Source of the DNA: Oscillospiraceae bacterium
Lineage (GTDB): Bacteria; Bacillota; Clostridia; Oscillospirales; QAMX01
Assembly (NCBI GenBank): GCA_015067825.1
Contig: SVLQ01000008.1
Span: forward strand, 64,777 to 128,776
Direction: 5' to 3'
Length of the DNA stretch: 64,000 bases
A program made the position numbers and the translations under genes. Of the stretch, positions 57,544 through 63,937 are shown in pieces (positions within the stretch are counted from its first letter, which is position 1; each line of letters opens with the position of its first letter). Under the pieces are notes generated by a model, which saw only the letters and a program-made list of their open reading frames with translations, ran no database searches and had not been told where the DNA came from.

Positions 57544-58518
57544 TTATTCGAGCGGGGGATTCTGCGGCGGTAGCGCACGGTGCTTTTTGACCGCTTTTTT
57601 GACCAGCAGCACGCAGACGAGCACGCCGCCACCGATTAAAACGACCCAAATGGCGATCTCCACGATGTTGCCGAGGAACCAGATCGCCGCGGCCTGCAGA
57701 CCGTCCCAAATGCGCGAGGTGCTCGCACGGAAGGTCTCAGCCAGCTTATCGCCAAAGCTCTGCGGCTCGGGCTTGGGTTCGGTGACAGAATAGACCTCGC
57801 TGAGCGTGAGCTCCACGGTGCTGTAGGAGATCAGCGAATCGAGGCGGTTAAGCTGCGAGGTGTACGATTCGATCTGGTAGCGGATGTCGCTCAGCTCGCG
57901 CTCGATCTCCAAAACGTACTGCAGATCAGTCGCGCCGGCCAGAAGCTCGATGATGCGCGTTTCCTGCGCACGCAGAGCGGTCAGCCGCGATTCGGTGTCG
58001 ATGTATTCTAAGGTCACGTCTCTGCCGGAGAGCGATTCAGAAATGACCGTACCGACCGTGCCGACGCGATCCAAAAACGCCTGCAGATTGGCCGCTGGGA
58101 TGCGCAGTGTGTAGGTCGCGTGGCGGGTCTCGTAGTAGTTGCCGGAGGCCGCACCCGAAAGGCGCGAATTCTCAACGTAGCCGCCGAGCTCTGCCGTCAG
58201 CGCGTTTAAGGCGTCGACGGAATCGTCGAAGGCGAGGGTCTGGATCGAATACGATGCGGTGTAGATCATCTTACGGGCGGGATCGAGCGCGCCGAGGTTG
58301 ATCGTGCTGCCGCTCGTGCCGATCGCCGTGGTCGTCGATTCGATGGAAACGTCCAGGGATTCCCCTTTGCCGTCATAGGAGTATTTCGGTGATTCGGCGG
58401 CGGGATTTCGGTAAGCGTCGTCGCTCTCGGCCATGGCTTTCGCGCCGCAGCCGAACAGCGCACCGACAGCGAGCAGGATCGCCATCAGAAAAAGAGCATA
58501 ACGGAGCGTTTTCTTCAT
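57544..58518 (-). CDS. DUF4349 family lipoprotein
   Basis: The 324-residue protein has a lipoprotein signal with lipobox ending LFGC (C24), a Ser/Thr region, the DUF4349 domain with RKMIYTASYSIQT, RIPAANLQAFLDRVG, VTLEYIDTESRLTALRAQE and a coiled coil (VLEIERELSDIRYQIESY), and a C-terminal membrane helix (VEIAIWVVLIGGGVLVCVLL). It is anchored at both ends of the outer domain. Function unknown. It follows another lipoprotein gene by 18 bases. Confidence 0.88.
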   Translation of the reverse strand: MKKTLRYALFLMAILLAVGALFGCGAKAMAESDDAYRNPAAESPKYSYDGKGESLDVSIESTTTAIGTSGSTINLGALDPARKMIYTASYSIQTLAFDDSVDALNALTAELGGYVENSRLSGAASGNYYETRHATYTLRIPAANLQAFLDRVGTVGTVISESLSGRDVTLEYIDTESRLTALRAQETRIIELLAGATDLQYVLEIERELSDIRYQIESYTSQLNRLDSLISYSTVELTLSEVYSVTEPKPEPQSFGDKLAETFRASTSRIWDGLQAAAIWFLGNIVEIAIWVVLIGGGVLVCVLLVKKAVKKHRALPPQNPPLE

Positions 58519-58536
58519 CGTAAAATCATCCTTTCA

Positions 58537-59505
58537 TCAGCCCTCGCAGCCGGTGTGGCCGGGGTACTCGGTTTGCACCATTTCGGTTTCGTCAAATGCG
58601 ATCTGTGCGTATGCGATGGCCTGCGGATCAAGATCGTCGCGGGCGACCTCAGCAAACATCGTCCAATCGGCCATGTCGCAGGTACCGACTTCCGGGACAA
58701 GCCGCCGTACCCAAAGGGTGGCGGTATTGTCGTCGAGCAAAAGCTCCATCGGCTCGTGGCGGATACTGCCGCTGGGCTCGCGGAGCTGCGCGATCAGCAG
58801 AAAATGCGTCTCGAAAAAGGCGTTGTGTTCTCCTTGATAGTGTGCGAGCGCGGCTTGCAGATCCGCAGCAGCAGAACTGTCGAGGTCAACGATCGTACCG
58901 AGCGCGGAAACGTAATCGGCGAGCGCTTCGGCGGAATCAACCACCACGATAGGCGCCACACCCACTCCCGAAGGATGGAATTCCGGGAAAAACCGCACGC
59001 AAAGGGCGTTGTAACCAACGGCCCAAATGCCGGGATCCGCTTGCGGATCGATCGGACAAGCCGACGATCCTACGTTGGAAACGATAGTAAACCGGGCGTA
59101 GCCCTCTTCGTAGGCGAGGTAGATCCGGTCGATGTGCGCCGAAGAGGCGAAGATCTCCTGCCCGACCGTAACGCGGCTGCCCGTGAACTCACCGCTGAAG
59201 GTGAGCGGGTCATTATCGAGCGCTTCAACTGCGCCGACTTTGGCAAAGCCTGTAGGCAGCGGCAGATCGCGGCCTTCGCCGCTATAGACGTAGATGTTCC
59301 CGCGGAACATCACCTGCGGCCGCTGGATCTCACCGCTAGGATAACCGGTCTGAACGGTAACGTGGGTCGCCTCCGCACTGACACCGACTCCGTCGATCTC
59401 TCCGATCTGCTGAAGTCCCGGCTCGGGATTAGCCGCAAACAACGAACAAGATGAGAAAAGCAAAATAAACAGGAAAAGAAGCGGAAGCATTCGAACCTTG
59501 CGCAC
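58537..59505 (-). CDS. Lipoprotein of unknown function
   Basis: GTG 59505 lies five bases after AAAAAGGAGG, so it is preferred over ATG 59526 (inside the site) and ATG 59490. The 322-residue product has a lipobox LLFSSC and a secreted beta-rich domain, with a C-terminal part (FETHFLLIAQLREPSGSIRH) that resembles small beta-domain proteins of unknown role. It lies downstream of repeat R4 and upstream of the DUF4349 lipoprotein, with which it is probably co-transcribed. Confidence 0.75.
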   Translation of the reverse strand: MRKVRMLPLLFLFILLFSSCSLFAANPEPGLQQIGEIDGVGVSAEATHVTVQTGYPSGEIQRPQVMFRGNIYVYSGEGRDLPLPTGFAKVGAVEALDNDPLTFSGEFTGSRVTVGQEIFASSAHIDRIYLAYEEGYARFTIVSNVGSSACPIDPQADPGIWAVGYNALCVRFFPEFHPSGVGVAPIVVVDSAEALADYVSALGTIVDLDSSAAADLQAALAHYQGEHNAFFETHFLLIAQLREPSGSIRHEPMELLLDDNTATLWVRRLVPEVGTCDMADWTMFAEVARDDLDPQAIAYAQIAFDETEMVQTEYPGHTGCEG

Positions 59506-59534
59506 ACGCAAACCTCCTTTTTGCAAAATTCAAT

Positions 59535-59717
59535 CCGTTTTTTCGGTGGCTTTGCCGCCGAAAAAACTCCACCAAGGCGAACAAAGTTCGCCCACGCGCC
59601 GAGAGGAGCCGACGAAATCGAAGATTTTGGCGGCGGGGATCAGCGCGTGAGAGAGATCGATCGAAAACAGAGTTTTCGATCGGTTTTCCCCGATTAGGAA
59701 ACGCAGTTTCCTAATCG
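59535..59717 (-). repeat. Multi-hairpin dispersed element, copy R4
   Basis: Hairpin A is TTTTTTCGGTGGC/GCCGCCGAAAAAA, hairpin B as in R1 (GGCGAAC/GTTCGCC), the block ACGCGCCGAGAGGAG, a variant hairpin C, GGGGATCAGCGCGTGAGA, an extra hairpin CGATCGAAAAC/GTTTTCGATCG and hairpin D as CGATTAGGAAAC/GTTTCCTAATCG. It starts one base after the stop codon of the vWA gene (minus strand). Confidence 0.92.
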
Positions 59718-59718
59718 A

Positions 59719-61143
59719 TTATTTACAATAGCGGTTCGTGATCTCCACGAGCAGATCGTTCAGCGGACGCACGGCGTACTGCCCGATCATCGGCTCGGCG
59801 TGGTCGCCGCCGATACCGCTGTGGTTGGTGAGGAAGGTATAGGTGCCGCCGGTGAGGGTGGCGCAGGTGCGCAGGAAGTATTCGCAGTCAGGTCCGACAC
59901 CGCTGGAGGCGACCGGAATGATGCGGATGCCTTCGGCCGCAAACTGCGGCAGGCTCTGGCGCAGCGATGCGAGCACGGCGGGATCTTCGGTATGCGCCGG
60001 GGCATCGAGCACGAAGAAGAGCAACTTCACCGAATGTTCGCTCCATTCGTGGTCGTAAAGCGCGTTTTCCAGCGCGGTGTGCACGGCTTCGGGGTTGTCG
60101 CCGCCGGCGTCGGCCCACTGCTCGGCGAGGAATTCGAGCGCTTTGCCGATATCCTCGGTGAAGGCCGAGGGCAAAACGACGTAGGCGTCGCCTTCATCGC
60201 GGTAGAAATTGAAGCTCAGGCGGATCGTCATGTCCGGGTTCTCGGCCTCTACGCGCGCAACCACGTCGGCGAGCTCGACCTGCAGGTACGCAAGCTCATC
60301 CCACATCGATCCGGTCGTGTCGATGACGAACATGAGATCCAAAACCGTCGGCTTTTCCGCCGAGAGGACGAGTGCCGCGCCCAAGCCCTGTTCGGTCTCG
60401 GTGATCGGCGCGCCCATGCCGTCGTAGCTCTCGGTGGTCACGAACGCGGCGCGCTCGGCGATGGTTTTGTTCATCGCAAAGAGGTATGCCGTGCCGGTGT
60501 GGTCGGTGACGGCGGAGGCGAGGGCGTTGCCGTCGGCATCGGTCAGCGTGACGGTAACGCTGCGGGCGGGCTCACCGTTGGCGTCGGCGACGGTGACGAC
60601 GTAGCGCTCAACCGGCGCGAGGCCGTAGAGCTCGACGTAAGGCGCCCAGCGCTCGTCGGTGAAAAGATTGGTGAAGAATTCGTAGTCCTTGTTGTCGCAC
60701 CATTCGCCGGCGGTCAGAAGCCCGGCGACGGGGTCGACGGTCGGGGAAGAGGGCTCGATCACACCATCCGACTCGCCGGTGGTGGGTTCGAACGTATCGC
60801 CCGGTTCGCGGCCGACCACAGCGTGCGTCCCTTCGGGGAAAACCAGCTCGGCATCCGCCCATGTGCCTGCGATTGTGGTGGTCATCGCCGCCGTGGTCAT
60901 CGCCAGCGTCGGTGTGAGGGTAGTGGCTTCCTCAGTCGTAACGGATGCGGCCGTCGCGCAAGTCGCGGCGGGGTCGGTGGGTTTGCCGCTGGTCAAGTCT
61001 TCTTCGGCGGAGTAGTGGAGATCCTTCGAGGTGTTGATGGCTCTCTCCTTCGTGCCGAAGAGGTAGTCGCGGCCGAACCATGCACCTGCGCCGAGGAGCA
61101 CGACAGCCAGCATGCAGCAGGTGGAAACGAGCTTCCAGTTCAC
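59719..61143 (-). CDS. Membrane-anchored vWA domain protein, main part of a frameshifted gene
   Basis: The frame opens with GTG 61143 and encodes 474 residues: a membrane helix near the start (VSTCCMLAVVLLGAGAWFG), a Thr-rich linker, a beta domain (VERYVVTVADANGEPARSVT) and a vWA domain with the metal-site motif DLMFVIDTTGSMWDELA. The frame upstream of the GTG continues without stop back to a 14-bp tandem duplication (61183-61210); removing one unit would join it to the 53-residue reading frame upstream. As it stands the cytoplasmic N-terminus is separate. The gene follows an ECF sigma factor gene. Confidence 0.85.
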   Translation of the reverse strand: MNWKLVSTCCMLAVVLLGAGAWFGRDYLFGTKERAINTSKDLHYSAEEDLTSGKPTDPAATCATAASVTTEEATTLTPTLAMTTAAMTTTIAGTWADAELVFPEGTHAVVGREPGDTFEPTTGESDGVIEPSSPTVDPVAGLLTAGEWCDNKDYEFFTNLFTDERWAPYVELYGLAPVERYVVTVADANGEPARSVTVTLTDADGNALASAVTDHTGTAYLFAMNKTIAERAAFVTTESYDGMGAPITETEQGLGAALVLSAEKPTVLDLMFVIDTTGSMWDELAYLQVELADVVARVEAENPDMTIRLSFNFYRDEGDAYVVLPSAFTEDIGKALEFLAEQWADAGGDNPEAVHTALENALYDHEWSEHSVKLLFFVLDAPAHTEDPAVLASLRQSLPQFAAEGIRIIPVASSGVGPDCEYFLRTCATLTGGTYTFLTNHSGIGGDHAEPMIGQYAVRPLNDLLVEITNRYCK

Positions 61144-61301
61144 GCGCTTTTTGGCGGGCGCTGCGGGCAGCTCCTGCGGGATGGACGTGAGGTTTGGGAC
61201 GTGAGGTTTGCGAGAATCGCCTGCTTCTGGTCGGCGGGCGGTGTCGGTTTGTTTTCTCTGAGGCGGGCTTCGATATCAAAAACAGAAGGCTGCTTCTTCA
61301 T
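61140..61301 (-). pseudogene. N-terminal, frameshifted part of the vWA protein gene
   Basis: ATG 61301 follows AAGGAGGATC and encodes 53 residues (MKKQPSVFDIEARLRENKPT onward) that turn into a Ser/Arg/Pro tail after the 14-bp duplication and stop at TGA overlapping the next GTG (GTGA). In the undisrupted frame these residues would be the cytoplasmic head of the vWA protein, placed like an anti-sigma domain. It may still be translated, with re-initiation at the GTG. Confidence 0.75.
61183..61210 (-). repeat. 14-bp tandem duplication causing a frameshift
   Basis: GGACGTGAGGTTTG occurs twice in a row (61183-61196 and 61197-61210). Fourteen is not a multiple of three, so one copy shifts the frame of the vWA gene. 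Confidence 0.9.
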
Positions 61302-61333
61302 AAGATCCTCCTTGTAGCGTTCGTAGGTTTGAT

Positions 61334-61870
61334 TTAGTGGGAATCCTGCAAAAAGCGCTTGCGCAGCTTCTTGAGGGCGTAGGTATATTTCCAACGGACC
61401 ATCGGTGTCGAGAGCCCGAGGGTCTGGGCGATCTCGGCGTGAGTCAGGTCGCCGTCAATGCGCAGCAAAACGATGTCGCGCTCCTCACTTGTCAGAAGCG
61501 TATCGATCAGTCCGCGCAGGTATTCGCGTTCGATCACGGTACTGTCGTCCGAAACGGCCGTTTCCGGACGCACCGCACCGTCGGTGAGCTCGACGGAGGC
61601 CGGCCGCCGCAACTCATCCAAACAGAGATTTCGTACGATGCGCATGATCCACGCCATCGGCTTGCCCTGCGGCGTGTAAGCAGGGGCAGCACGCCAGATC
61701 TTCAGGAACGCGTCTTGCGATACGTCGTCTGCCGCGTCCGGCAGGCGCAGGATCGAAAGGGCATACGCGTACACGGCACGGCTGCAGTGATCGTAAAGCG
61801 CGCCAAACGCCTGCGTGTCGCCTTGTCCTGTCTGCGCGATCCATTCTTCCAGTTTTCGGTCATGCGTCAT
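61334..61870 (-). CDS. RNA polymerase sigma factor, ECF type
   Basis: The 178-residue protein has region 2 (FGALYDHCSRAVYAYALSIL, DAADDVSQDAFLKIWRAAP, PMAWIMRIVRNLCLDELRR) and region 4 (EERDIVLLRIDGDLTHAEIA, QTLGLSTPMVRWKYTYALKK). AGGGAATTCT precedes the ATG. It lies 32 bases upstream of the N-terminal part of the vWA gene, which has the topology of an anti-sigma factor. Confidence 0.95.
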   Translation of the reverse strand: MTHDRKLEEWIAQTGQGDTQAFGALYDHCSRAVYAYALSILRLPDAADDVSQDAFLKIWRAAPAYTPQGKPMAWIMRIVRNLCLDELRRPASVELTDGAVRPETAVSDDSTVIEREYLRGLIDTLLTSEERDIVLLRIDGDLTHAEIAQTLGLSTPMVRWKYTYALKKLRKRFLQDSH

Positions 61871-62981: not shown

Positions 62982-63888
62982 GCAAGGGAGGCTTGGCGGT
63001 TGCTCTTTGCGGGAGGAGAAACGTTGTCATGCTTCTGCCGTGGCGGCGGCCGCCAAAGACCCCCTTGTAAAGGGGGTAAATTCCCGCTGGGCGGGAATTT
63101 GGGGGATTCTTTGTGCGGGAGGAACGGCGTTATCTTGCGGCGACCGCATCGGCAATCCCTCCGTCACGGCTTCGCCGTGCCACCTCCCTTTGGAAGGGAG
63201 GCTTGCTGGTTGCTCTTTGTGAGAGGAGAAACGTTGCTACGCTTCTGCCGTGGCGGTGGTCGCCAAAGACCCCCTTGTAAAGGGGGTAAATTCCCGCTGT
63301 GCGGGAATTTGGGGGATTCTTTGTGCGGGAGGAACGGCGTTATCTTGCGGCGACCGCGTCGGCAATCCCTCCGTCACGGCTTCGCCGTGCCACCTCCCTT
63401 TGCAAGGGAGGCTTGGCGGTTGCTCTTTGTGGGAGGAGAAACGTTGCTACGCTTCTGCCGTGGCAACGACCGCCAAAGACCCCCTTGTAAAGGGGGTAAA
63501 TTCCCGCTGGGCGGGAATTTGGGGGATTCTTTGTGCGGGAGGAACGGTGTTACCTTGCGGCGACCGCATCGGCAATCCCTCCGTCACGGCTTCGCCGTGC
63601 CACCTCCCTTTGCAAGGGAGGCTTGCTGGTTGCTCTTTGTGAGAGGAGAAACGTTGCTACGCTTCTGCCGTGGCGGTGGTCGCCAAAGACCCCCTTGTAA
63701 AGGGGGTAAATTCCCGCTGTGCGGGAATTTGGGGGATTCTTTGTGCGGGAGGAACGGTGTTACCTTGCGGCGACCGCACCGGCAATCCCTCCGTCACAGC
63801 TTCGCCGTGCCACCTCCCTTTGCAAGGGAGGCTTGCTGGTTGCTCTTTGTGAGAGGAGAAGCGTTGCTGCGCTTCTGCCGTAGCGGCG
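62982..63888. repeat. 210-bp tandem repeat array, four full units and a partial fifth
   Basis: The block GCTT(GG/GC)(C/T)GGTTGCTCTTT recurs at 62991, 63201, 63411, 63621 and 63831, exactly 210 bp apart. Each unit holds the palindromes CCCCCTTGTAAAGGGGG, TTCCCGC-NN-GCGGGAA, CACGGCTTCGCCGTG and CCTCCCTTTGCAAGGGAGG. Units 1 and 3 share variants against units 2 and 4. Because 210 is a multiple of three, long open frames cross the array but they are not genes. No gene lies between 62925 and 64000. Confidence 0.95.
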
Positions 63889-63937
63889 GGTATATAAAAA
63901 CCTTGTATAAAATTGGTCAGATTTGGTCATTTTATAC

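Follow-up and report, generated by a model that had tools for sequence, protein, structure and literature searches.

The stretch of DNA that we analyzed (64,000 nucleotides, hereafter the window) carries on its minus strand two neighboring genes, the second of which is interrupted by a frameshift. The first (61334-61870) encodes a stress-type, ECF sigma factor of 178 amino acids with intact regions 2 and 4 (Pfam Sigma70_r2, 4.5e-17; Sigma70_r4, 1.6e-10; NCBIfam sigma70-ECF, 1.6e-23); the presence of these two regions, the lack of regions 1 and 3, and a length of about 180 residues place it among the ECF sigma factors. Directly downstream, after a gap of 32 nt, an ATG at 61301, preceded at a distance of 5 nt by a strong Shine-Dalgarno sequence (AAGGAGG, 61307-61313), opens a reading frame of 53 codons that ends at a stop at 61140. 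By sequence and codon signal, the first 35 residues (MKKQPSVFDIEARLRENKPTPPADQKQAILANLTS) are those of the original head of the protein, and the last 18 belong to a shifted frame. The remainder, which we call the body, is a 474-amino-acid open reading frame (59719-61143) whose GTG start at 61143 overlaps the stop of the head as GTGA. This layout is the one given in the original prediction, which also proposed re-initiation at the GTG: the overlap is present and would make re-initiation possible, but no ribosome-binding site lies ahead of that codon.

The body comprises a predicted membrane helix (body residues 3-28, 61060-61137; AlphaFold2 model and hydrophobic sequence), a long, disordered Thr-rich linker, a putative Ig-like or macroglobulin-like beta domain (residues about 144-259, 60367-60714; weak Pfam matches to bMG3 and Big_1, with strands in the model), and a vWA domain (residues about 267-473, 59725-60345) that includes a MIDAS-type motif, DTTGS, at 60307-60321. 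The vWA assignment draws on a VWA_4 match (1.4e-8, 34.9 bits against a Pfam cut-off of 27), on conserved columns, and on Foldseek matches of the model to vWA/I domains (E 1e-6 to 1e-5); the vWA profile had no match among PDB sequences. Mean pLDDT of the body model was 64, the outer domains lying mostly between 70 and 90. Directly after the vWA gene, a 12-pair hairpin (59691-59717), with a T-run on the plus strand only, is a possible transcript end. Farther downstream on the minus strand, 57544-59526 encodes a 329-aa protein with a lipoprotein-like start and no Pfam family, together with a DUF4349 protein.

The duplication and the reading frames

Between the head and the membrane helix, two head-to-tail copies of GGACGTGAGGTTTG occupy 61183-61210 (TRF: one array, period 14, 2.0 copies, 100% match; repeat scans agree), just as had been predicted. 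Since 14 is not a multiple of three, the head and the body fall in different frames; with a single copy the gene would, by arithmetic, read as 522 residues in one frame, close to the roughly 520 proposed earlier. The window holds no further perfect tandem repeat whose unit is 12 bases or longer, and a dinucleotide-model sequence is expected to hold about 0.05 exact tandem repeats with units of 12-60 bp per 64 kb. Tandem repeats in coding DNA are expected in multiples of three. In a census of 80 stretches of the same genome (1.58 Mb in total), all remaining exact tandem repeats with units of 12-60 bp had units of 12, 15, 18, 21, or 57 bp, every one a multiple of three, so that the 14-bp repeat is the sole exception and no class of frame-breaking repeats was found in that size range. 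Given the low chance expectation and this singularity, we regard the repeat as a real duplication event, whether it arose in the cell or during assembly. A search of viral contigs for the repeat junction returned nothing.

Other repeats of the genome fall outside that census. Two exact tandem repeats with units of 11 bp (L138:18249-18270) and 10 bp (L149:6621-6640), likewise not multiples of three, lie within open reading frames elsewhere. Within the window, 62982-63889 holds an imperfect tandem array of a 210-bp unit (4.3 copies, 94% identity), of which only a piece of 39-43 bp was found elsewhere in the 1.58 Mb.

Codon log-odds, built on the codon frequencies of the window's 27 long open reading frames, place the change of frame at the repeat. 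Upstream of it the head frame scores best (6.3 versus -5.5 and -13.0), between the repeat and the GTG the body frame does (3.5 versus 0.6 and -3.7), and past the GTG the body frame scores best again (9.2 versus -7.8 and -27.2). Since the coding signal of the body frame is already present before the GTG, this codon is not an old start but once lay within an unbroken gene.

A ribosome could in principle bridge the break by programmed -1 frameshifting at a run of five A residues (61148-61152), the only obvious candidate for -1 slippage, and so still produce a head-membrane-vWA protein. The run lies just ahead of the stop of the head, and slipping back by one base at this place leads into the body frame, but the slippery heptamer is only partial (A AAA AGC), the downstream structure is not unusually stable (z = +1.0), and the relatives described below have no need for such a device. 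An AGGAG-like site does lie upstream of the run, but at 18 nt it is farther away than in known stimulators. With a partial heptamer and no stimulating structure found, we set programmed frameshifting aside as extremely unlikely.

Relatives of the vWA protein

We collected relatives by an alignment-based scan that covered 394 genomes from the order and the genome contig collection, which yielded 100 distinct vWA-family places; a scan of the contig collection with the single protein had recovered none, whereas the alignment-based scan did. Because places were recruited by their vWA region, selection did not depend on an intact head. In 18 of the 100 places an ECF sigma gene lies directly upstream on the same strand, and in every one of these 18 a single uninterrupted frame runs from the head through one membrane helix to the vWA part, an arrangement that the frameshift breaks in the window. 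The hydrophobic stretch of these proteins starts at residue 29 to 67. Because all 18 ECF-linked relatives are unbroken, we take the single-frame form to be ancestral, which bears out the earlier view of a continuous protein running from a head across a membrane helix to an outer vWA domain. Pairs of an ECF sigma gene and a short-headed vWA membrane protein are found at loci L003, L013, L015, L017, L018, L029, and L034-L036, and further ones at L060, L080, L096, L102, and L106-L110.

The other 82 relatives have no adjacent ECF gene, and 70 of them have a lipobox-like start in place of the head and helix. These VWA_4 lipoproteins, known from Clostridia and Paenibacillus, share the beta-plus-vWA outer region with the window protein at roughly 39-50% identity. 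A quick tree of 93 rows, in which 14 of the 18 ECF-linked rows were placed, requires four to five changes between the linked and unlinked states, and 11 ECF-linked rows form one clade. The window vWA sits on a long branch close to lipoprotein forms; with lipoprotein forms as its nearest rows, membership of the window protein in the main ECF-linked clade is unsupported, and its pairing with a sigma gene may have arisen separately from that clade. Judged by these sequences, a vWA module otherwise found on stand-alone lipoproteins has probably been joined several times, independently, to sigma-linked heads.

The body itself shows no decay, with no stop in 474 codons and no excess loss of conserved residues. 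It deviates from the family in 2 of 67 conserved columns, the members ranging from 0 to 10; a test for relaxed selection on the vWA part gave no sign of it, the value lying within that range. The DTTGS motif is invariant in the 93 rows, which had been picked by a near-identical motif. The further stops and lost conserved residues of a decayed pseudogene are thus absent, and a body without visible decay implies that the break happened recently, is an artefact, or can be reversed and is not always present.

An error of assembly or sequencing is one way to account for such a break: the gene would be intact in the organism, with a single copy of the 14 bp, and the other copy would stem from assembly or polishing. 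The 18 intact ECF-linked relatives, the undecayed body, and the isolation of the repeat as an oddity in its genome are all consistent with this, but the repeat lies well inside a contig of 139.8 kb, and a perfect 14-bp tandem duplication, being shorter than a read, is not a usual error of short-read assembly. We consider an artefact unlikely, though it is the main alternative to the reading we prefer, a recent one-off mutation, which is the simplest and most likely one.

The head and the sigma factor

The original prediction connected the protein with the neighboring ECF sigma gene and ascribed to it an anti-sigma topology. Both points gain from the 18 relatives and from the partners of the nearest sigma factors. 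Within the family, the closest relatives of the window sigma factor are those of genomes G002, G005, and G014 (41-42% identity), and a paralogue in its own genome (G000:C4) is 40% identical. Downstream of each of these four genes, at a spacing of -4 to +11 nt, lies a gene for a short-headed membrane protein with one helix, whose outer domain is RsgI_M (PF23750; E 1e-12 to 1e-14) in the three that were tested (G000:C4, G002, and G014); the fourth, from G005, carries the same sequence motif. ECF sigma genes with short-headed RsgI_M proteins downstream are located at G000:C4:100749-101264 (L214) and at L198-L200. An RsgI_M outer domain normally goes with SigI. The window protein differs from the RsgI family of Clostridia, to which the outer domains of these partners belong, in having a vWA in place of RsgI_M and an ECF sigma factor in place of SigI.

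The heads of these partners look similar to that of the window protein (for example, MKNREIEAKLSSAFEKATPDVLDRILGDL versus DIEARLRENKPTPPADQKQAILANL), and against a profile of ten partner heads the window head scores above 99% of shuffles, a weak similarity given that 20 of 2,000 shuffles did equally well. Searches of Pfam and NCBIfam for a recognizable anti-sigma domain gave no match for the head. As sequence comparison goes, the resemblance is suggestive of a sigma-binding domain, and an anti-sigma-like role for the window protein is supported, because the genes downstream of the nearest sigma factors encode similar short-headed RsgI_M membrane proteins. The arrangement is that of the RsiV, RsiW, RseA, and RskA type, in which the gene directly after the sigma gene encodes a membrane protein with one helix, a cytoplasmic N-terminal head, and an outer domain. 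Unlike those, the window type has a head of about 30-67 residues without a Pfam anti-sigma domain and an outer part made of a beta domain and a vWA domain, and the window gene is frameshifted. The class II anti-sigma domain of the CnrY type is like the window head in its shortness only; CnrY wraps two helices around its ECF sigma factor (PMC7406223), and by analogy a head of such length would fit a CnrY-like, two-helix mode of binding.

It is conceivable that the split arrangement works as two genes, the head acting alone as a soluble anti-sigma factor and the body being made by coupled re-initiation at the overlapping GTG (GTGA). The GTG-TGA overlap would permit this, the 53-aa head keeps all of the part that can be aligned to other heads, and the body is open from ahead of its membrane helix. 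Yet the GTG has no ribosome-binding site, the segment ahead of it carries the coding signal of the body frame, and the split version occurs in none of the 18 relatives; we think a functional two-gene form improbable.

Proposed consequences of the split

We propose that a recent, one-off 14-bp duplication in a sigma/anti-sigma-like operon has cut the control of the sigma factor off from an outside signal, an explanation that we consider probable. In this view the operon pairs the ECF sigma factor with a one-helix membrane protein. The sigma factor is probably bound by the short head at the cytoplasmic N terminus of that protein, and the beta and vWA domains on the outside probably sense some signal. 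Replication slippage or template switching would have duplicated the 14 bp between head and membrane helix and so broken the frame. The two-copy state would yield a free 53-aa head peptide without a membrane anchor, and the membrane/vWA part would be made little, not at all, or only through coupled re-initiation at GTG 61143, so that the outside signal would no longer reach the sigma factor. The sigma factor would then be permanently free if the head is unstable, or permanently held if the head is stable and binds. In Clostridium thermocellum the freed N-terminal fragment of RsgI is degraded by ClpXP via motifs in the membrane helix (PMC12203970). By analogy, the split head might persist and hold the sigma factor, because the helix with such motifs is missing from it, or it might be unstable for other reasons. 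Against this explanation, the quick tree does not put the window vWA within the main ECF-linked clade and gives it a long branch, and the similarity of the head is weak. Besides an assembly error, an old allele that has become fixed may also account for the break.

Any repeat of this kind would be expected to revert through slippage between its copies, and such reversion does not have to be adaptive. The original prediction went further and raised phase variation, with a recent knockout or an assembly error as other outcomes. As an evolved system, slippage would let a population alternate between the split, free-head form and an anti-sigma protein under the control of its sensor. Two perfect copies of a unit that is not a multiple of three do lie at the head-membrane junction, the conserved residues are retained, and such repeats can in principle lose one copy. 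The likeness to slipped-strand contingency genes is that the copy number of a tandem repeat sets the reading frame; the difference is that the window has just two copies of a 14-bp unit and that switching is putative. Known slippage-driven switches use short repeats in many copies, or homopolymers, and the multi-copy, slippage-prone tract of a contingency gene is absent here. A review of phasomes gives cut-offs for repeat number (PMC11868660). Each of the 18 ECF-linked relatives has the gene intact, and the 1.58 Mb of the genome (units of 12-60 bp) holds no class of similar repeats to which this isolated one could belong. We judge evolved phase variation to be quite unlikely, and a recent knockout or an assembly error remains the more likely outcome. 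Very unlikely, in our estimation, is a heritable two-state switch in which gain and loss of the 14-bp copy alternate a tethered anti-sigma protein with a free, signal-blind head. If such a switch were true, a fraction of the cells would run the sigma regulon independently of the signal, and a DNA repeat would be tied to the responsiveness of a sigma factor to its signal.

The pairing of an ECF sigma factor with a short-headed vWA membrane protein did not come up in our search of the literature. The break in itself is nothing out of the ordinary. A useful result of analyzing it is a recurring combination of an ECF sigma gene with a gene for a short-headed membrane protein bearing an outer vWA domain, present at at least 18 distinct loci, mostly in Clostridia.
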